IMG/VR virus record: IMGVR_UViG_3300007516_000148
Location: 1-24,015 of that record
Reading direction: 5' to 3' (one strand)
DNA length: 24,015 nucleotides
Source: a virus
Part shown: positions 1,767-11,115 of the stretch, piece by piece
How positions within the stretch are numbered: position 1 is the first letter of the stretch
Layout of the letters: every line of letters starts with the position of its first letter
Translations under genes and position numbers: made by a program
The notes under the pieces: generated by a model
The model's input: only the letters and a program-made list of their open reading frames with translations
Databases searched by the model: none
Told to the model about the DNA's origin: nothing

Positions 1767-4700
1767 TGTTAAAGGCGCTTTCCGATGCTAGTACTTCCTC
1801 TTCAAAAGACAACTCTAATAAGATTGGAGCTGTAGATACAGTACTACTTAGGTTAATAGCCACATCTATTTCTTTGTGTCGGCCTTTACCAACTGCTAAT
1901 CTAGCAACATTATTATCCTCATTCATTTGCACTGTGCCAGTTTGCCAACTTCCACGATCTAATCTATATTCAAGTGATACGGATTGACCTGTAATCAATG
2001 GTTCAAGATCAGCTCTTAGATTCATAACTGATTTTTCCTTATAAACGGCACCATAGTCCATCCTAAGACGTTCAATTCTAGCCGTGGAAAAAGTAGTCCC
2101 AGCCGGATCTATTACGTCTACACCATAGGACACATTATCCTTCCAGCCTATTAATAACTTCTTTTCAACTGGAAAAACTAGACCTACTTGGATGTTGGAG
2201 TTAGTTCTATTACCAGTCGAGAGTGGGTAATCATAGGATAGAGCCATCGGATCAGTGTCATCCAGATGACCATATGTATAGACCCCTTGCTCAACTGTAT
2301 TAGAATTGGTCACACCAGCACCGAATCTGAGTAAAGTTTGCCACATGGTCACGGCTCCGGGCATAATTTCCATAGAGTCGGCCGAAGTAATGAGTGGGAC
2401 GCGTTTTTTCTTTCTCGCCTTAGCTCCACCTGTATACTCCAGTAGATCTCCTTGATATCCAGCCCAGCTGTAAAGAGTACCAGCTGTGCCAAGCATAGCG
2501 TTGATTGCACCCTCTGGCACCTCAATATAATCATTGTAAGTGGTGGATATACCATCCCAGAAAAAGATTGCCCCCTGATCATACGATCCGACACTAGTTC
2601 CACGCATACACCCAATAGCTAAAAATCCTTGCCATTTAGCTAGGCAACGAATATTATATTCCGCGGGTAGAGTTAGCCTGTGCGGCTTAAAAGTAACACC
2701 ATTCCAAGTAGCTAAATATCTACCATTACCAATAGTCAATAAATTAATCATATTTTCCATAGGATGATATTGAGTATCTGTCACTAAGAATTGATAATAA
2801 GTGTGAAAATCAGCAGTATTAAGATCACTTGTCGTGGTTGTGACTACCGCGGGAGTCCCAGTAGTATTTGTGACTGTTAGATGAAAGTGGTAAGTTTGTC
2901 CAAGCACCGGACGCCACACGTCACTAAAAATAAATTCAAAATCCCCAGATGCAGGCAGGGCAGCGTTTAATACAGTCTTTGACGCAACAACTCTATTCAG
3001 GGCATCATGTACAGTAAGTGTCCAATCAGCTGTAGTCCCTTTAGCACTGATATTGACCTCAAGTGATTTTTGAGGGTCACGTACAGGTATAAATTCTTGT
3101 CTATCAGTTGAGGATTCACCAATAGACGTAGACAGTGCGTAGGTCTGACCAGTGGTATCGAGGGCTTGATCTAGGTCTAGTCTAGCAGTAGGTGAGGAAA
3201 AAGGGACGGTCGTAGTATAAGTGGGTGAACCTGAAGCCGTTAAATTATTGGCGTTAGATGTAGCGTCTGTAGCATCGTTATTAAATTTATAATAGGCTAC
3301 CAATCCAGGAGAGGTCGTTGAGACTTGAATATCCTTATTAGAGAATAGTTGAGATTGTGTGCGTTCAGTATTCCAAACTCTTACATCATCAACTAATCCG
3401 TCCATAAATCCGGTTTTAGCTCCACCACTATTTTCATAGGCTCCAACATGGAAATCAGAGGCGTTGTCATGAATAGCCGTTAATGCTCCGGTGGCAGTTC
3501 CCTGAGACACACCATCTATATAAAAGGTTGCTGTGGAGCTAGAGGCATCCCACGACAACGCTAGTCTGTACCACAGAGCGGTTGTAATATCGACTACTTT
3601 TGTAAGACGTTCCGTATTTAAACCTGTACTAGATATACCTAGTCTGAGTTGATAAGAGGTAGTTGTGACTAAAGTATTGTCTTGTGATTGATCAATGGTT
3701 GGAGTAGTTGTTCCGGTAAATGAGGTATAGTAGTCGATATGGACTCTACCTGAGGATCCATTTGTACCGTCTCCCTGTCCTCCTGTTGCACGGGTTCCAC
3801 CGCTTGCAGTAACCAAAGTCGTACCCAAAGTACCGGATTGACACTTTAATAATACAGAGCCACCCGCACCACCACCGCCTCCGCCATGTTCATTACCTGA
3901 GGGAGCATCACCATTTCCACCATTAACCGTAATTAACGAGCCACTATTTAAGGTGATAGTAGTAGCGACTATAAATATTATTGCTCCACCATTTCCTCCT
4001 GATCCGCCGTATGCTGTAGCATGACCACCACCAGATCCACCACCACCACCAAACGTCATACTTGTTAAATCAGCACTTCCAGAACTTAATCCACCATTGC
4101 TTCCTGAGGCTGCACTGGCTGTAGTAGCATGACCACCACCAGATCCACCCATATAAGGCGGCGTACCAGATCCACCACCACCACCGGATCCATTAGCTGC
4201 AATCGACCTTGCTCCGCCTACTCCGGTAGTACCTTCTCCCTGAAAACCTACAAAATAATAATTTCCATCATCTGTTGATCTAGCTCCACCTCTAAATCCA
4301 CCCTTATTGCCTATATAAGCCTCTTGTCCTGCACCGGAAATTGTACCGTTATTAGTAATAGTTCCTGAACAAAGAAATGCTAATATGCCTCCAGTTGTAC
4401 CGTCCCAAGCCTTAGCGGTATAAGTAAATCCACTATTTATCGTGACAGCAGAATATTGAAGTAAAACCCTGACCTGCGCTCCTGTAATATAGGCAGCATT
4501 TAAAGCATTAGCTAGAGTAATAGTGCCGGCGGTGTAAGAGACGATAGTGTTGCGCATAGTAGTACCTGCACCACTGCCCCTAGTTTGATGGATTAATATT
4601 TCCTGACCTGAAGCAAATCCGGCATTGGTGGCACTAAGACTTAAACTTGCTAAAGTCCCCGTACAAGCTGAATCAGTTGGAGATTCTGTAGTATTAGATG

Positions 4701-5400
4701 AAATTGTCAATGCTCCACTAGAGCCATCACCGAAGAAACCTGATATAGCAAAAAGATCAAACATGTATGACCTGAGTGTTCCGGATTCATCCCATTTAGA
4801 TACTATGGTATGTGAGTTGCCAACAGTTGGTAAGGATTCAGGTTTATAATATGCCTCAATTGCTAAATCTCCGGTAATAGATAGCGAGGCGCTGTCAGCT
4901 CTGGATAGATACTGAGAGGATCCGGATTCTAGATCTATGGAATAAGTGTTAAGCGGTACGCCACCCTCTGAACCTAAATAATCATCAACAAAGTTAGCAG
5001 TCCCATCAGTTGGTCCATATCTTCCTAGGACTCTATCTGAAGCGTAATAGAGGAAGTTATCCTCCCCGTAAAACTTAAGTCCATTGCCGTGAGAGTTGGC
5101 TACCTGTCTAAGTAGAGCGTGTGACCCAGCCAAAGTTCGACTATAGATGTTTCCGGTATCTCCATGAATATAAATAATATCATTGACTCTATCAGCCCAC
5201 TTAGGTAAATCAGTGACAACCGAGCCAGATTCTTTTGAAGTTTTAGTCAACACACTTACTTGGCGAGAGTGGGAACGGACATTAACACTGCGCCCGAAAG
5301 CGTAAGAATTAGGCAGATTCTTTTTATTGTCGTCAGATATCCCACCATTAAAAGAGGATTGAGTATCAAATTTGCGTGAGCGAGTATTTTTTCCATCCAT
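1759..5400 (-). CDS. Nozzle-like tail protein with LamG domain and glycine-rich adhesin-like insert (1213 aa)
   Basis: Position directly after the adaptor and the two outer parts of the protein suggest the nozzle (T7 gp12-type) of a short tail. Residues 1-145 and about 870-1213 contain repeated beta-strand and Trp/Gly patterns (YLATWNG, FFWDG, LYSWAG) consistent with a propeller-like core. Between them, residues about 150-735 look like a concanavalin/LamG sandwich: YSIDLESGSSQYL at the start, then WYRLALSWD, ATFYIDG, DDVRVWNTERTQ and YYKFNNDATD. The LamG fold is itself interrupted by residues about 226-575, which are very rich in glycine (runs of 5-6 Gly, GGSGGGHAT twice). Residues 745-860 look like another beta sandwich. 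LamG domains bind glycans or proteins, and glycine-rich regions serve as receptor-binding tips in some phage adhesins. This may therefore be a nozzle carrying its own host-binding module. Domain edges are judged by eye. The start overlaps the adaptor stop (TAATG). Confidence 0.85.
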   Translation of the reverse strand: MDGKNTRSRKFDTQSSFNGGISDDNKKNLPNSYAFGRSVNVRSHSRQVSVLTKTSKESGSVVTDLPKWADRVNDIIYIHGDTGNIYSRTLAGSHALLRQVANSHGNGLKFYGEDNFLYYASDRVLGRYGPTDGTANFVDDYLGSEGGVPLNTYSIDLESGSSQYLSRADSASLSITGDLAIEAYYKPESLPTVGNSHTIVSKWDESGTLRSYMFDLFAISGFFGDGSSGALTISSNTTESPTDSACTGTLASLSLSATNAGFASGQEILIHQTRGSGAGTTMRNTIVSYTAGTITLANALNAAYITGAQVRVLLQYSAVTINSGFTYTAKAWDGTTGGILAFLCSGTITNNGTISGAGQEAYIGNKGGFRGGARSTDDGNYYFVGFQGEGTTGVGGARSIAANGSGGGGGSGTPPYMGGSGGGHATTASAASGSNGGLSSGSADLTSMTFGGGGGSGGGHATAYGGSGGNGGAIIFIVATTITLNSGSLITVNGGNGDAPSGNEHGGGGGGAGGSVLLKCQSGTLGTTLVTASGGTRATGGQGDGTNGSSGRVHIDYYTSFTGTTTPTIDQSQDNTLVTTTSYQLRLGISSTGLNTERLTKVVDITTALWYRLALSWDASSSTATFYIDGVSQGTATGALTAIHDNASDFHVGAYENSGGAKTGFMDGLVDDVRVWNTERTQSQLFSNKDIQVSTTSPGLVAYYKFNNDATDATSNANNLTASGSPTYTTTVPFSSPTARLDLDQALDTTGQTYALSTSIGESSTDRQEFIPVRDPQKSLEVNISAKGTTADWTLTVHDALNRVVASKTVLNAALPASGDFEFIFSDVWRPVLGQTYHFHLTVTNTTGTPAVVTTTTSDLNTADFHTYYQFLVTDTQYHPMENMINLLTIGNGRYLATWNGVTFKPHRLTLPAEYNIRCLAKWQGFLAIGCMRGTSVGSYDQGAIFFWDGISTTYNDYIEVPEGAINAMLGTAGTLYSWAGYQGDLLEYTGGAKARKKKRVPLITSADSMEIMPGAVTMWQTLLRFGAGVTNSNTVEQGVYTYGHLDDTDPMALSYDYPLSTGNRTNSNIQVGLVFPVEKKLLIGWKDNVSYGVDVIDPAGTTFSTARIERLRMDYGAVYKEKSVMNLRADLEPLITGQSVSLEYRLDRGSWQTGTVQMNEDNNVARLAVGKGRHKEIDVAINLSSTVSTAPILLELSFEEEVLASESAFNNG

Positions 5401-6305
5401 TATGTAATATGTCTATCAGTATTATGGTCGAGTCCAATTATCCGCCTCCGAATACGATGATTCGGGATAACCTGTGAACTATAGCGTCTGCCATAAGTCG
5501 CCTTAGCCCAGGCGTGATATTGCTCATATTGGTTCTTGTAAATAGCCCCATAAGTAGCATCCTTCTTGTAACCTTCAAAATAGTGCCATAAAGCAAAGTA
5601 GACGGGGATGTGGTGGGTTGGCCCAGGAGTAACGGGCATTTGACCGATGATATAGGCACTAGTTCCGGCTGTAATAGCAGTTCCCTGGTATTTTTTAATT
5701 AATTCAAGATTAGTAGCGTCGGTAATAGATGCTATTTCGTACCATTGACCATCGTTAGTTATTTTTAGATATCTTCCAGCTAGGCCACCAGTGGCAGTGC
5801 TCCAAGCTGTCCCAGTTCCTACTATAGTCTCGTCCGCATTAGTGGCAGTGGTAATTGTACCGCTAGAAAAATCATCATATTGCATATCCTTAGACTCAGC
5901 TTCATAGATGATGGTGTAGGTTAGAGCAGAGGCAGAAGCGGGGTAGTATTCGATAGTATTCCGCCTAACAAACATATAACGGACATAATCACTAGTTACA
6001 CCGCTAGTATTGGATTGAATGATTCTCCACTCGTCTTCATCATAGATTTCATGCGCGCTATATTGATTACTACCACTAATTACATAAAACGCTTTAGGTC
6101 GGACACAATCTTCAGGTAATTGGACACTGCTAGCTGAGGGAACGGTCGTACCTGTTCTAGTTTTTTCTACATGATGAATCCCTAAATCAGCCTCAAGCAT
6201 GTGTTGACCTAAATTAATTTGTTGCTTGAGAAAAGTTGTGGCGTCAGTGGAGGTATCAACCGCCATGTTTTGTGCCATGGCATACTGTTGGTTAAAAGTT
6301 AACAT
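5400..6305 (-). CDS. Head-tail adaptor (T7 gp11 / SU10 adaptor-like, 301 aa)
   Basis: The N-terminus is helical (QQYAMAQNMAVD, FLKQQINLGQHMLE), followed by a beta-rich middle with the typical adaptor phrases VQLPEDCVRPKAFYV and TIEYYPA, and a C-terminal helical part (VYFALWHYFEGYKKDATYG). This layout, helical bundle plus beta barrel at about 300 residues, fits the adaptors that dock under the portal in short-tailed phages. It lies immediately before the nozzle-like gene, again as in podoviruses. A segment around residues 145-200 (TATNADETIVGTGTAWST) resembles a small beta domain often seen in structural proteins. There is no enzymatic motif. Its start at 6305 follows a 24-base gap with a weak AAGG upstream. 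I am confident it is a structural connector and fairly confident in the adaptor call. Confidence 0.8.
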   Translation of the reverse strand: MLTFNQQYAMAQNMAVDTSTDATTFLKQQINLGQHMLEADLGIHHVEKTRTGTTVPSASSVQLPEDCVRPKAFYVISGSNQYSAHEIYDEDEWRIIQSNTSGVTSDYVRYMFVRRNTIEYYPASASALTYTIIYEAESKDMQYDDFSSGTITTATNADETIVGTGTAWSTATGGLAGRYLKITNDGQWYEIASITDATNLELIKKYQGTAITAGTSAYIIGQMPVTPGPTHHIPVYFALWHYFEGYKKDATYGAIYKNQYEQYHAWAKATYGRRYSSQVIPNHRIRRRIIGLDHNTDRHIT

Positions 6306-6329
6306 AAAGCAGACTCTACCTTATTATAA

Positions 6330-7130
6330 CTACATATCCAGTAAAGTATCTAGGTCGTTCTCGTGAATTTGCTTATATGCCAGTCCCTTTTTAACTGGTG
6401 GATCACTAGGAGTTGTCGCGTTCATACCACTAGCAGCAGCTTTTTGTTTGCTGATTTGTTCTTTGTTTTCAACTTCCTTAGCTTTTTGATCAGCGAATTT
6501 AAACCCTCCACCAAACTGTTCGGGTACTTGTGTCCAAAGTTCATAAGCATCGTGATAGGTGCCCTTACCGTGTTTTTTGCCAAAATCTACTAGATCTAAT
6601 TTAAACTTTCTACCTTCGTCAGTATTCGCCGTTGGTAGTGTTTTTTCTTTGGCTAAGTTATCATACTCAGTCTCAAAATTCTGGACTATTTTAGCTTCAG
6701 CGTCCCTTTCTTCCTGTGCCTCTAACACTAGTAATTTTTTGGAGTCTTCATGGTAATCTAACGGATTTTCATACTTCTTATCTCTCATCTCGTTTTTGAA
6801 GAGTTCGGATTGTTTAATGGGGATTTGTGTTTCAACTACAGGTTGAGGATTCTCAGCTTCTCGTTTGGCCACCTCTTGAGCTACATAGGCATCACGTTCA
6901 GCAGTAGACTTAAAAGTAATTGGCTCTTCCGGGGGTTTCTCTTCAACCGCCTCTTCAATAACAGGAGTTTCCACAATGGGTAGGGCAGGCTCTTCTGTTG
7001 ATAGGAATGATTTAAATGCAGTTTTCTCACCATCATCTAGCTCCGCCTCATGTTCTTTAAGAAAATCTTTTTCGCCTTGATCAAGTTCATCGAGCATTTT
7101 CCAACGAGTTTTTCCCAGATCATAGTCCAT
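6330..7130 (-). CDS. Acidic helical protein, candidate scaffold (266 aa)
   Basis: Strongly charged and mostly helical. Residues about 10-85 are acidic with a Pro/Glu-rich linker (EEAVEEKPPEEP). The central part is Lys/Glu coiled-coil-like. The C-terminus carries a charged tail ending NDLDTLLDM. No domain is recognised. Scaffolding proteins of HK97-fold phages look like this (acidic, helical, no Cys), and no scaffold gene lies in its usual place between portal and capsid genes. This gene or the coiled-coil gene at 11416-12231 is therefore the best candidate for a displaced scaffold. The alternative is a virion-core or tail-assembly protein. The ATG overlaps the upstream stop (TAATG), so it is coupled to the gene at 7130-7789. 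The gene call is firm; the function is inference. Confidence 0.75.
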   Translation of the reverse strand: MDYDLGKTRWKMLDELDQGEKDFLKEHEAELDDGEKTAFKSFLSTEEPALPIVETPVIEEAVEEKPPEEPITFKSTAERDAYVAQEVAKREAENPQPVVETQIPIKQSELFKNEMRDKKYENPLDYHEDSKKLLVLEAQEERDAEAKIVQNFETEYDNLAKEKTLPTANTDEGRKFKLDLVDFGKKHGKGTYHDAYELWTQVPEQFGGGFKFADQKAKEVENKEQISKQKAAASGMNATTPSDPPVKKGLAYKQIHENDLDTLLDM

Positions 7131-7789
7131 TAGATAGGTTCCTCGTAGTTAAGCTCCTGAGATAAAGTTTCGTCATCCATTACAGCCCAAGCAGCTTTAG
7201 TTTTAGGATCCTCGACATTAATCATTAAAGTGTCTTGAGCATAGGCGACAAGTTTGCCTCTTAATTCGGTTTGTGGTTGTTCTGGAGCCTGAGGTGTGTT
7301 AGTTTCAATTTGTTTTTGTTCCAGAGCGACATCAGCTAAAGCAGCGGATAGATCAGGCACGGTCACTGCCGGCTCAGATTGAACTGGGACTGGTGGAGGA
7401 GTTGGGACTATTGCTATCGGAGCGACGATAGGTTGAGTTTGTTTAGCTATATATAGATCTAAGTCAGACGGTCTATTCATTTGAGATATTTTATCCTCTA
7501 GGAGTTGGTTTTCAGTTTTGGGTGCTTCTTGGACAGCAGCTGTAATATTTAATACTATTTGTTGAGTATAAGCAGACCTTTTTCCTAGATCAGCAGTGCT
7601 TTCGTTACGCTCATTCATGATGGAATCTACTAAATGTTTAAGAAAAATATTAGCCATTGATTGAGGAAAAGTTCTAGTTTGGCCCTTGACTAAAAGTCCG
7701 TAGGAAGCACTGTTATAAATGCAGTCAAAAGGTTCTGCCGCTAGATTAGTTAAGGTTATTTGATTGTGTTGGGCTTGTTCGGGATTCAT
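7130..7789 (-). CDS. Phage structural-region protein with N-terminal beta domain and Pro-rich linker (219 aa)
   Basis: Residues about 10-60 (NLAAEPFDCIYNSASYGLLV, then GQTRTFPQSMANIFLKHLVD) match a small domain I know from many phage head modules, of the form 'N-x-x-x-x-x-F-x-x-x-Y-x-G-x-x-Y-x-x-x-x-G-x-x-x-x-x-P-x-x-x-A-x-H-x-x-x-H-L'; its biochemical role is not established. Next come a helical stretch, a Pro/Ala/Val linker (PTPPPVPVQSEP) and an acidic C-terminal part. It is the first gene after the strong promoter at 7816-7844 and is translated from a leader of about 20 bases. It probably forms an operon with the acidic candidate scaffold, adaptor and nozzle-like genes. No catalytic residues are visible. 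Confidence 0.75.
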   Translation of the reverse strand: MNPEQAQHNQITLTNLAAEPFDCIYNSASYGLLVKGQTRTFPQSMANIFLKHLVDSIMNERNESTADLGKRSAYTQQIVLNITAAVQEAPKTENQLLEDKISQMNRPSDLDLYIAKQTQPIVAPIAIVPTPPPVPVQSEPAVTVPDLSAALADVALEQKQIETNTPQAPEQPQTELRGKLVAYAQDTLMINVEDPKTKAAWAVMDDETLSQELNYEEPI

Positions 7790-7815
7790 GGGGTGGACTC
7801 TTGGTCTCTTAATTA

Positions 7816-7844
7816 AGATTACAATGTTTCTAAAAAGGTGTCAA
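7816..7844 (-). promoter_or_regulatory. Strong sigma70-type promoter for the tail operon
   Basis: The minus strand reads TTGACA (7844-7839), a 17-base spacer, then TAATCT (7821-7816). The -35 is a perfect consensus match and directly abuts the stop codon of the upstream gene. Six bases later comes AGAGACCAAGAGTCCA (from 7809), which also occurs at the same spacing after the capsid-gene promoter. Transcription probably starts at or near 7809, giving a leader of about 20 bases before the ATG at 7789. Confidence 0.75.
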
Positions 7845-8525
7845 CTAACCAATATTGAACACTCTCCTAGTTGATGCAACGACCTCTGATTTTATTGCGA
7901 ATGAAACTCCAATATAAGCTGTGCCTGTTCCGTTATGAGTAAAGGACTGCGCTCCGGTAGATCCGGCTGCGGTGATCACCTTGGTAGTATAAGTCTGACC
8001 CTGATTATTATCGACTGATTGTTGCACGGTATAGCCTGAAGGCCAACCGGTAAAGTCATCAACTGAAGCATCGATAAAAGAACAAGCACAATGGATAGCA
8101 TTAGCTGTGTTGGTAGTTATGGTTGGGGCTGAAGCATCAGATGACCCGGGTGGTGAGTCTAGATTACTAGTGGTAGGTGTGACATCATAAATATCAGTGG
8201 CATGAACATTCTGAAATGTTGTAGCTATTATTGACCATCTTCCCGAAGTTCCCAGAGTAAAGTTATAGGTAGCAGGATCCCCGGCTATAATTCTTCTCGA
8301 AAAAACAGATACGGTGTGGCCGGTGGAGGTATTCGGTTTGTGGTCGTTAAGATCTTCAGTAAAGGGTGTACTTCCGTTGTTATCAACAATCGTGGTTTGA
8401 GTATTACCATGCACGGTTAAGATAACTACATGCCCAGTTGTAGTGCCTGTTGGGCTACCCACTGACATAGCGGTGCCTGTGGTACTGGAATTTTGAGATG
8501 ATGCTACTACGCTAACTGCTGGCAT
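7845..8525 (-). CDS. Beta-sandwich surface/fibre-type structural protein (226 aa)
   Basis: Almost all beta-prone sequence, rich in Thr, Ser, Gly and Ala and poor in charged residues. Phrases such as GHVVILTVHGN, GRWSIIATTFQNV and TAYIGVSFAIKSE resemble the carbohydrate-binding-like or jelly-roll domains often found in phage minor structural proteins. There is no signal peptide or catalytic motif. It sits directly after the long fibre gene (TAATATG junction), so it may be a fibre partner or a capsid or tail surface decoration protein. It is the last gene before the promoter at 7816-7844, so it probably closes the head/fibre transcription unit. The specific role is unknown. Confidence 0.75.
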   Translation of the reverse strand: MPAVSVVASSQNSSTTGTAMSVGSPTGTTTGHVVILTVHGNTQTTIVDNNGSTPFTEDLNDHKPNTSTGHTVSVFSRRIIAGDPATYNFTLGTSGRWSIIATTFQNVHATDIYDVTPTTSNLDSPPGSSDASAPTITTNTANAIHCACSFIDASVDDFTGWPSGYTVQQSVDNNQGQTYTTKVITAAGSTGAQSFTHNGTGTAYIGVSFAIKSEVVASTRRVFNIG

Positions 8526-8526
8526 A

Positions 8527-11115
8527 TTATGGATTTTGCTTAAAGAAAATAGTAATACTTCCTTCAGTTACTGTACCTGATTGAGCAGTAGTTTTACATC
8601 TGATAAAAGCTCCCGCGGATACCGATGCATTGTCAAAAGTTGTTACAGAAGTTCCAGTTGTGGTATTGGTCGTAGCTGAGATAGAAGTGATTAAATTAGT
8701 TCCGGCTGCGCTCCTGTCTGTACCGTGGACAACATTAAATGTGACTGACGGGGTAGATGATCCCTTTACCACTGCCACAATCTTAGTGATAGTGACCGCT
8801 ACATCAGTATGAAACATCGTAATATCTTCACTTGCGGTGGGGGTTTCAATCGTTAATGTTTTACTTTGAATTGGATTTACAACAACTTCAGCTGTTCCAT
8901 CATAAAAGTTAAGTGTCTTGGATGTTGAGTCTATTGTGACTTCACCTGTCGCGTCCACTGTAGTTCCACCAGCACCGTTTGGGACTTCTAGCGATGTTGC
9001 ACCGCCAGCATCAAGCGCACCTAGTAAGACACCAAGTGTTTGAGTGCCTGTAAATGTTTGAGCAGCGTCAGTCCTCGCAATGGTGGCAGTGGTAGTCGGA
9101 AAAGTCATCGTAGTCGCATCTGTACCAGCTAGAGTTATAGTGTTATTTGAAAGTAGTTTTTTACCTGTGGCACCACTCGCACCTCCATAATTTGCACTCC
9201 ATGATGCAGCTGTTGTACCTGAAGTCAAAATACAAGTTATTATTACCGAAGTTAGGCCTGCAAGGATAATAATGGCATTTGCACCTGAGGAGTTAATTGT
9301 TACAAGTCCTGTTGAGTTATTTACAATGTAATATTGTTGCCCTAATACTAAAGTAGTAGCAACTGGCATTGTTACTGTTTGAGTAGTTGCACCTGTAAAA
9401 ATTTGGGTATATGTACTTCCTACTGTCAAAGTTGTTGTACCAGCTGCAGTGGCAGTAGTTGAATAACCTTCGAGTAGATTGACTGACGATAAATTACCAT
9501 TAGCATCTCTTGAAGCTAGTGTTGAGACTGTGGCACCAGAAGCGACACCTGTTCCAGTCGGAAGACCATTGAGGACGGGGGTTGCGATAGTAGGGGTAGT
9601 GCCGAATACAGCCACCCCTGTACCCGTTTCGTTCGTGAGAGCCGCTAAGAGTTGTGCAGAGGTGAAAGAACCAAGAACGGCAGCATTGCCCGTTGAAGTT
9701 ATATGTCCTGTAAGATTAGCATTCGTTGTTACTGTAGCAGCGTTACCAGTAATACCCCCTGCGATATTGTTAGTAACTTGTAAATCAGTGAACCAGCCTT
9801 TAGTTATTCTGGTGCCAGTTACACCTATTGAACCTGACATCGTTATTGAGTTTGTACCTAGTGCTAGGTCGCCTCCTGATACTGTAAATCCTCCTGTGGC
9901 TGTGGCTACAGTTATGTTTGCGGACCCATTAAAAGAAACTCCTCCTATTGTTCTTGCGTTTAATAAGGTCACCGCGGTTGTAGCAGCACCTGAAGTGGAT
10001 ACTGTGTTGTCTCCTGTGTTAGTTCCTGAGTTAGTTCCTGTGATGTCTGAGGTAAAAGCAAGTGTTCCAGCTGCATCTTTCAAAGTATAAATACGATTAG
10101 CTGTGTTGGTGTTTACAAAATATCCATCAAAAGTATTAGCCACATTCCTTAGTTTCATGGTTGTATCTAAGAATGTTTTGATGCCAGAGTTAGTTTGTGC
10201 AGTGGCAAGTACCATGTCTCCTGAGCCTGCAACGGTCACCCAAGTTGGAGCAAGTGTAGTTCCGTTACTTTGTAAGACCTGTCCAGCTGATCCGTTAGTC
10301 AGGCGAGTTGGTGCGCCAGATGCACCACCATAGATAACATCCCCCCCAGTGGTCATCGGATTAGTCATCTTTGCGTTTATTTGAGTTTGAATTGCTGAGG
10401 TGACACCAGTTGAGTAGTTTAACTCTACAGCACTTGAGGTGACATTTGTTCCCGCAATATTTAAGGTAGTCATTCTAGCTGTACCATCGACATCCAATAG
10501 AGCAGCTGGAGTATTAGTTCCAATTCCAACCCTATCAGTTGAGGCATCAACGAAAAAAAGATCTGGGTCTGTGTCGCCCTCTATGCGGGTGTCAGCATCC
10601 AAACCATTCTCGTTAACAATAATTGAGTTTCTAAAAGTACTGACTCCACCAGCTCCGATAAACAGGCTTTTCCATTCATTACCTGAAGCACCTAAGTTAA
10701 TTAAGTTATTAAAAGTACTAGCAGGAACTAGGCTAGTAGCAGACAGACTCATTACATCCTGATAGTTGTTATTAAAGGGAAGTTCAAAGGCAATTGCAGC
10801 AATACTACTGGCCGTATTTTGTGCACCAATTCGCATAATGTTATATGTTGTATCGTGATAGATAAACATATAGGGGGTATACCCACCAATAACGATTGGC
10901 TGTGCAAAAGCTTGACCTGCGCCACTCACAGCAAGTGTACCTGTACGGATATTCTTAGCTTTTAAAAGATCATTAGTTTCATCCCATGTGAACTCAGCAT
11001 CCCCACCAAAAGCACTAGCATCATTATATTGAACATAGGTATCAGATCCACCAGGACTACCTCCAGAACCTGTTTGATCAAGATTTCCCGTAAAAGGATT
11101 AAATTTATATCCCAT
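8527..11115 (-). CDS. Long tail/head fibre protein (862 aa)
   Basis: The N-terminus MGYKFNPFTGNLDQTGSGG and phrases such as FTWDETNDLLKAKN, DTRIEGDTDPDLFFVDAST, DRVGIGTNTPAALLDVDG and TNSGIKTFLD are hallmarks of phage and viral fibre shafts. Most of the protein consists of repeating Thr/Gly/Asn/Ala beta segments (SGTNTGDNTVSTSGAATT, LASRDANGNL, TLTVGSTYTQIF). The C-terminal 110 residues (from TIETPTASEDITMF) form a separate compact beta domain ending FFKQNP, likely the distal tip or trimerisation cap. I see no S74 intramolecular-chaperone domain and no depolymerase motif. It probably binds the host surface as a trimer. The attachment point could be tail or capsid. The ATG follows the upstream stop after 2 bases (TAAATATG). 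Confidence 0.85.
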   Translation of the reverse strand: MGYKFNPFTGNLDQTGSGGSPGGSDTYVQYNDASAFGGDAEFTWDETNDLLKAKNIRTGTLAVSGAGQAFAQPIVIGGYTPYMFIYHDTTYNIMRIGAQNTASSIAAIAFELPFNNNYQDVMSLSATSLVPASTFNNLINLGASGNEWKSLFIGAGGVSTFRNSIIVNENGLDADTRIEGDTDPDLFFVDASTDRVGIGTNTPAALLDVDGTARMTTLNIAGTNVTSSAVELNYSTGVTSAIQTQINAKMTNPMTTGGDVIYGGASGAPTRLTNGSAGQVLQSNGTTLAPTWVTVAGSGDMVLATAQTNSGIKTFLDTTMKLRNVANTFDGYFVNTNTANRIYTLKDAAGTLAFTSDITGTNSGTNTGDNTVSTSGAATTAVTLLNARTIGGVSFNGSANITVATATGGFTVSGGDLALGTNSITMSGSIGVTGTRITKGWFTDLQVTNNIAGGITGNAATVTTNANLTGHITSTGNAAVLGSFTSAQLLAALTNETGTGVAVFGTTPTIATPVLNGLPTGTGVASGATVSTLASRDANGNLSSVNLLEGYSTTATAAGTTTLTVGSTYTQIFTGATTQTVTMPVATTLVLGQQYYIVNNSTGLVTINSSGANAIIILAGLTSVIITCILTSGTTAASWSANYGGASGATGKKLLSNNTITLAGTDATTMTFPTTTATIARTDAAQTFTGTQTLGVLLGALDAGGATSLEVPNGAGGTTVDATGEVTIDSTSKTLNFYDGTAEVVVNPIQSKTLTIETPTASEDITMFHTDVAVTITKIVAVVKGSSTPSVTFNVVHGTDRSAAGTNLITSISATTNTTTGTSVTTFDNASVSAGAFIRCKTTAQSGTVTEGSITIFFKQNP

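Follow-up and report, generated by a model that had tools for sequence, protein, structure and literature searches.

Host sensing is usually the task of separate fibres. The locus described here raises the question of whether the injection nozzle of a short-tailed phage can itself be a receptor-binding protein, as an earlier note on this DNA had proposed from adhesin-like modules placed at 3196–4953 (residues 150–735) of a nozzle-like protein. The nested architecture described there is borne out almost to the residue (insert at residues 143–740, glycine-rich module at 222–574). The accompanying premise that a nozzle normally only forms the tail tube does not hold, as the nozzle of SU10 already has inserted Ig-like domains (PMC9509320).

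A tail nozzle with an interrupted propeller

The window, that is, the whole stretch of DNA analyzed, comes from a virus record 24,015 bases long, and its genes include a terminase, a P22-type portal (weak profile matches), and a major head protein. The nozzle gene is a single open frame of 1213 codons (Table 1), and the adaptor gene adjoins it here as it does in most relatives. Residues 147–213 of the adaptor match tail-fibre PHROGs (phrog_1980, 3.1e-7), and this part is possibly a fibre-dock domain as in SU10/T7-type adaptors.

Table 1. Features of the nozzle protein and its neighbour in the window (residue i of the nozzle protein begins at window base 5400-3(i-1))
Feature	Position	Strand	Evidence
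Tail nozzle protein with nested insert, 1213 aa	1759..5400	-	Foldseek matches to PDB nozzles; SU10-type adaptor gene immediately precedes it
Adaptor protein, directly upstream of nozzle gene	5400..6305	-	Pfam SU10_adaptor (PF24175), E=6.9e-9, above cut-off
N-terminal platform strands and putative propeller blades 1–2, residues 19–140	4981..5346	-	Aligns with insert-less relatives; model strands; blade assignment is a reading
Whole insert (LamG split by glycine-rich module), residues 143–740	3181..4974	-	Aligned relatives: 19 lack it and 24 (window not counted) have it
LamG N-terminal half, residues 148–218	4747..4959	-	Profile matches residues 2–71 of free-standing LamG in L002; VIA model range
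AgmC-like glycine-rich module, residues 222–574	3679..4737	-	NCBIfam NF047640, E=7.5e-22; homologues in 74 viral loci
Conserved beta-rich head of glycine-rich module, residues 222–345	4366..4737	-	Clade mean identity 0.66; model strands
Hypervariable glycine loops, residues 346–545, 34% Gly	3766..4365	-	Low identity, many indels, raised dN
LamG C-terminal half, residues 578–740	3181..3669	-	PF13385; matches residues 105–245 of free-standing LamG
Beta-sandwich adjoining insert, residues ~746–870	2791..3165	-	Alignment; found throughout the family; tandem copies in L039, L040
Predicted propeller blades 3–7, residues ~881–1111	2068..2760	-	Strand pattern; VIA propeller Z 26
Putative C-terminal platform strands, residues ~1123–1203	1792..2034	-	Strand pattern, analogy with SU10 (PMC9509320)

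No clear sequence match of the protein to solved nozzles was found. A model of residues 8–1207 was built from 36 sequences (mean pLDDT 87.8, pTM 0.55), and its best PDB matches by Foldseek were T7 gp12, P22 gp10, SU10 gp17, and the tail proteins of Sf6, Kp7, LME-1, Pa223, and E1004. All the top matches were nozzles, with E-values from 1.5e-8 to about 1e-6 and low TM-scores, which we put down to a different domain arrangement and to the insert, which has no partner in them. By its predicted fold, the protein is a podovirus tail nozzle, and from its relatives it is assumed to be hexameric. One propeller had been expected in the earlier note, and VIA-align found one, seven-bladed and WD40-like, across positions 20–1103 of the model (Z 26). 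Because this single propeller spans the whole of that range, the insert lies inside it; the pTM of the full model makes the relative positions of insert and propeller uncertain. The list of strands in the model, as we read it, gives two blades of four strands each ahead of the insert and a further five behind it.

A LamG domain split yet intact

The outer layer of the insert is a LamG domain in two halves. Pfam Laminin_G_3 (PF13385) matched residues 563–684 with 51.5 bits (cut-off 27.6), and the family profiles of its N- and C-terminal halves matched, in order, residues 2–71 and 105–245 of a free-standing LamG gene in another of the viral loci (L002:7995–8768; L numbers denote such loci). When the two halves were joined into one profile, it matched that gene end to end, at residues 3–249 of 251, with 157 bits. 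The insert was also modelled alone (residues 144–742, pLDDT 87.2, pTM 0.68). With VIA, 203 residues of this model were aligned to 4dqa, a putative carbohydrate-binding protein (Z 23.6, rmsd 2.6), and 206 of the 217 residues of the pentraxin 3flp_A were aligned to model residues 4–593 (Z 22.0, rmsd 3.0). Because the VIA alignments use model residues 4–593, the two parts of the LamG combine in a single fold despite the glycine-rich module between them. As modelled, then, this is a complete sandwich of the Laminin_G_3/pentraxin type (PF13385; 4dqa, 3flp), above the Pfam cut-off, although, unlike those, it is interrupted by a module of ~350 residues. One intact LamG had been anticipated, with the packing of its halves named as one of the points on which the idea could fail; in the predicted insert they do pack together.

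A portable glycine-rich module

The module nested in the LamG matched the NCBIfam profile gliding_AgmC_N (NF047640) over profile positions 111–402, with E=7.5e-22 and 77.8 bits against a curated cut-off of 275. Judged by sequence, it shares ancestry with the N-terminal domain of AgmC, a gliding protein of myxobacteria; its score below the family cut-off makes it a homologous domain and not an AgmC, and the phage protein stands in a different setting. The prediction of the compact glycine-rich part proposed earlier has good confidence (most blocks at pLDDT 70–95, a few at 52–69); in the insert-alone model, the glycine-rich stretch has few strands and block pLDDT values of 63–93. The head of the module is better conserved in the clade than the nozzle core (mean identity 0.66 vs. 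0.46), while inside the glycine loops the invariant positions are nearly all glycine and alternate with variable segments. The profile of the module had no sequence match in the PDB, solved gp38 included, which does not show that the fold is new, and tblastn gave no match to the module in annotated phage records.

A scan with the profile found the module in 74 viral loci. Besides the nozzles, it occurs as a largely free-standing protein in about 19 loci, mostly of 365–412 aa, and in 19 of the 19 that were checked the upstream frame stops within 13 nt of its start. In L124 and L127, the gene upstream of the module matches tail-fibre PHROGs (1.7e-7 and 3.7e-10, respectively). The module is also found inside other large proteins (L099:4629–8258, L112:4584–8279, and L091:4647–6572), which by eye have a jelly-roll-like stretch, and that of L099 has a Kelch-motif match. 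On sequence grounds, these three represent a second host architecture for the module. The module is portable, being present as a free gene behind tail or fibre genes, within the LamG of the nozzle, and within another propeller-bearing protein.

Some further observations were made around the free-standing genes. They lie directly behind another gene in L101, L109, L115, L117, L124, L127, and L130-L135. Several of the other upstream genes end, by eye, in a similar-looking sequence, and an HNH endonuclease gene is upstream of the module in L131 and, by its sequence, in L115.

Fast change in the glycine loops

When eight regions of the protein were compared in eight pairs of relatives, the glycine loops were the least conserved in six, with many indels. 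In the pair L023/L027, for example, the loops are 55% identical and the other regions 79%–94%. By equal chance, six or more of the eight would be expected with a probability near 1e-4, a calculation of our own that treats the regions as exchangeable, which strictly they are not. dN, measured in four pairs, was 0.41–0.60 in the loops vs. 0.05–0.33 elsewhere, and dS was high or saturated in all regions. Because of this saturation, the data establish faster amino acid change but do not demonstrate positive selection; loops under relaxed constraint would be expected to give a similar pattern.

The host recognition that had been inferred for the nozzle stays putative, and it gains independent support from the change and the indels in the loops and from the free module genes behind fibre genes. 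Our best reading, with a probability of about 0.68, is that the insert is a putative receptor-binding tip built into the nozzle where SU10 has its nozzle domains. The alternative that survives best, although we consider it unlikely, is a purely structural insert that would lengthen or brace the tail tip like the Ig-like domains of SU10, with glycine loops that vary unconstrained. The saturated dS, by which selection is not proven, would agree with it, as would the SU10 nozzle domains, which are apparently at the same place and act by rearrangement, with no receptor binding known (PMC9509320). It is less easily reconciled with invariant glycines that alternate with variable segments or with the recurrence of this module in free-standing genes beside fibre genes. 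In addition, LamG folds commonly bind ligands.

That same property could be turned into a second alternative, and one more doubtful than the first, in which the LamG would bind the receptor and the glycine-rich module would be a spacer or a contact surface between neighbouring nozzle subunits. LamG and pentraxin folds are ligand binders, the structural match to the putative carbohydrate-binding protein 4dqa is close, and in two of the eight pairs the C-terminal LamG half equalled or exceeded the loops in variability and ranked as the most variable part. However, the loops exceed the propeller in variability, which the LamG usually does not, and the module occurs without LamG in many phages.

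A probable single gain in a clade of nozzles

A profile made from the C-terminal part of the nozzle protein found 57 viral loci, and 24 insert-bearing proteins besides that of the window were aligned with 19 insert-less ones. Residues ~143–740 are almost without a counterpart in the insert-less proteins; both flanks align, with an occupancy of mostly 0.92–1.00. With all loci counted, the order nozzle-N, LamG-N, glycine-rich module, LamG-C, nozzle-C is complete in 51 distinct proteins, and all three inner parts are missing in 26. No nozzle with the LamG alone or the glycine-rich module alone, as a natural intermediate would be, was found among all the loci counted. The double nesting, of one domain in another and of both in a propeller, is present in an all-or-none manner among the diverged short-tailed phages of the clade.

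In a tree of the core built without the insert columns, which is unrooted, the insert corresponds to one change (24 vs. 17 rows, SH-aLRT 99). Because the insert-less state is also found in more distant annotated relatives, a single gain in the clade is the simplest reading of these sequences, even with the core tree unrooted. The tree of the glycine-rich module, compared with the core tree for signs of shuffling, has no starred branch. Although the window is one metagenomic virus record, an assembly chimera or a chance join of unrelated sequences has next to no probability, given the single open frame, the same architecture in 51 distinct proteins from many samples, and the clade-wide single origin.

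A number of relatives depart from the common plan. In L057:2–5584, a GH5 cellulase domain (3.4e-24) precedes the LamG with its nested module in the same frame, the N-terminus being cut at the contig end; this arrangement favours the receptor-binding reading. The nozzle gene of L006 is in two abutting frames (2440–3603 and 3603–6464) with the break inside the glycine-rich module, and the second frame opens with ~130 aa absent from relatives. In L038, the nozzle (6572–8041 and 8544–8909) is split by ~500 nt into parts that match profile positions 2–347 and 348–461 with no overlap, and the interruption may be an intron or similar element. In the insert-less nozzles L039:6560–8854 and L040:6584–8818, the beta-sandwich domain that corresponds to residues ~746–870 is duplicated in tandem. 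L005:6738–8996 (MW202577), annotated as a YbhE-like isomerase, is a distant nozzle relative with an unrelated-looking stretch at about the place of the insert. In L002, the stretch that separates the free LamG gene from the nozzle contains a short adaptor frame beside an HNH-endonuclease-like frame (9337–9714 and 9746–10,177). As to possible hosts, two relatives lie within MAG contigs of Terriglobia and Ca. Brocadia, and a distant insert-less relative is from a TM7 phage record.

How a receptor-binding nozzle might work

For the receptor-binding tip that we favour, the following course can be envisaged. A nozzle clade would have gained a LamG lectin-type domain once, between blades 2 and 3, and a strand-to-strand connection of this domain would carry the AgmC-like glycine-rich module. 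The LamG may be a stiff arm or a glycan binder near the tail mouth, and the module would display its variable loops on a framework of conserved glycines in the manner of gp38, and it would bind a cell-surface receptor. With up to six tips in contact, the tail would be brought into position, and opening of the nozzle could be aided. A bolder version, which we hold only tentatively, would make the nozzle both gate and receptor sensor, with binding at the loops relayed via the LamG into the propeller and opening the tail with no separate fibre signal; recognition and release would then reside in one polypeptide. In the open-licence literature, no precedent for a lectin or glycine-rich module in a nozzle was found. 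The arrangement suggests that an injection nozzle can be a receptor-binding protein, and the module may serve as a sequence handle for receptor-binding parts in uncultured phages that have no recognisable fibres.

Comparison with known systems

With SU10 gp17, T7 gp12, and P22 gp10, the protein shares a propeller-based nozzle that adjoins an adaptor, and with SU10 it also shares a propeller that accommodates extra domains. In SU10 gp17, these are inserted between blades 2 and 3 (PMC9509320), and because our reading of the strands places the insert between the same blades, the two sites appear to coincide. The content differs: SU10 has four Ig-like domains there, whereas the present nozzle has a LamG with an adhesin-like module, rich in glycine, nested in it.

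The other likeness is to gp38 of the T-even phages S16, PP01, and T2, in which conserved glycine-rich motifs alternate with hypervariable segments (PMC6851490, PMC12892980). It rests on composition and on the pattern of variation. A three-layer polyglycine II sandwich is a further mark of gp38; the modelled glycine-rich stretch of the insert has few strands. The T-even gp38 is a separate protein that caps the gp37 fibre via an N-terminal helical domain, whereas the module described here is within the nozzle ORF and is neither a separate protein nor a cap, so that identity as gp38 is ruled out. Some of the free-standing module genes, which follow a fibre gene, resemble g38 behind g37. By analogy, the closest working parallels are the SU10 nozzle domains for the position of the insert and gp38 for the principle of its glycine loops.
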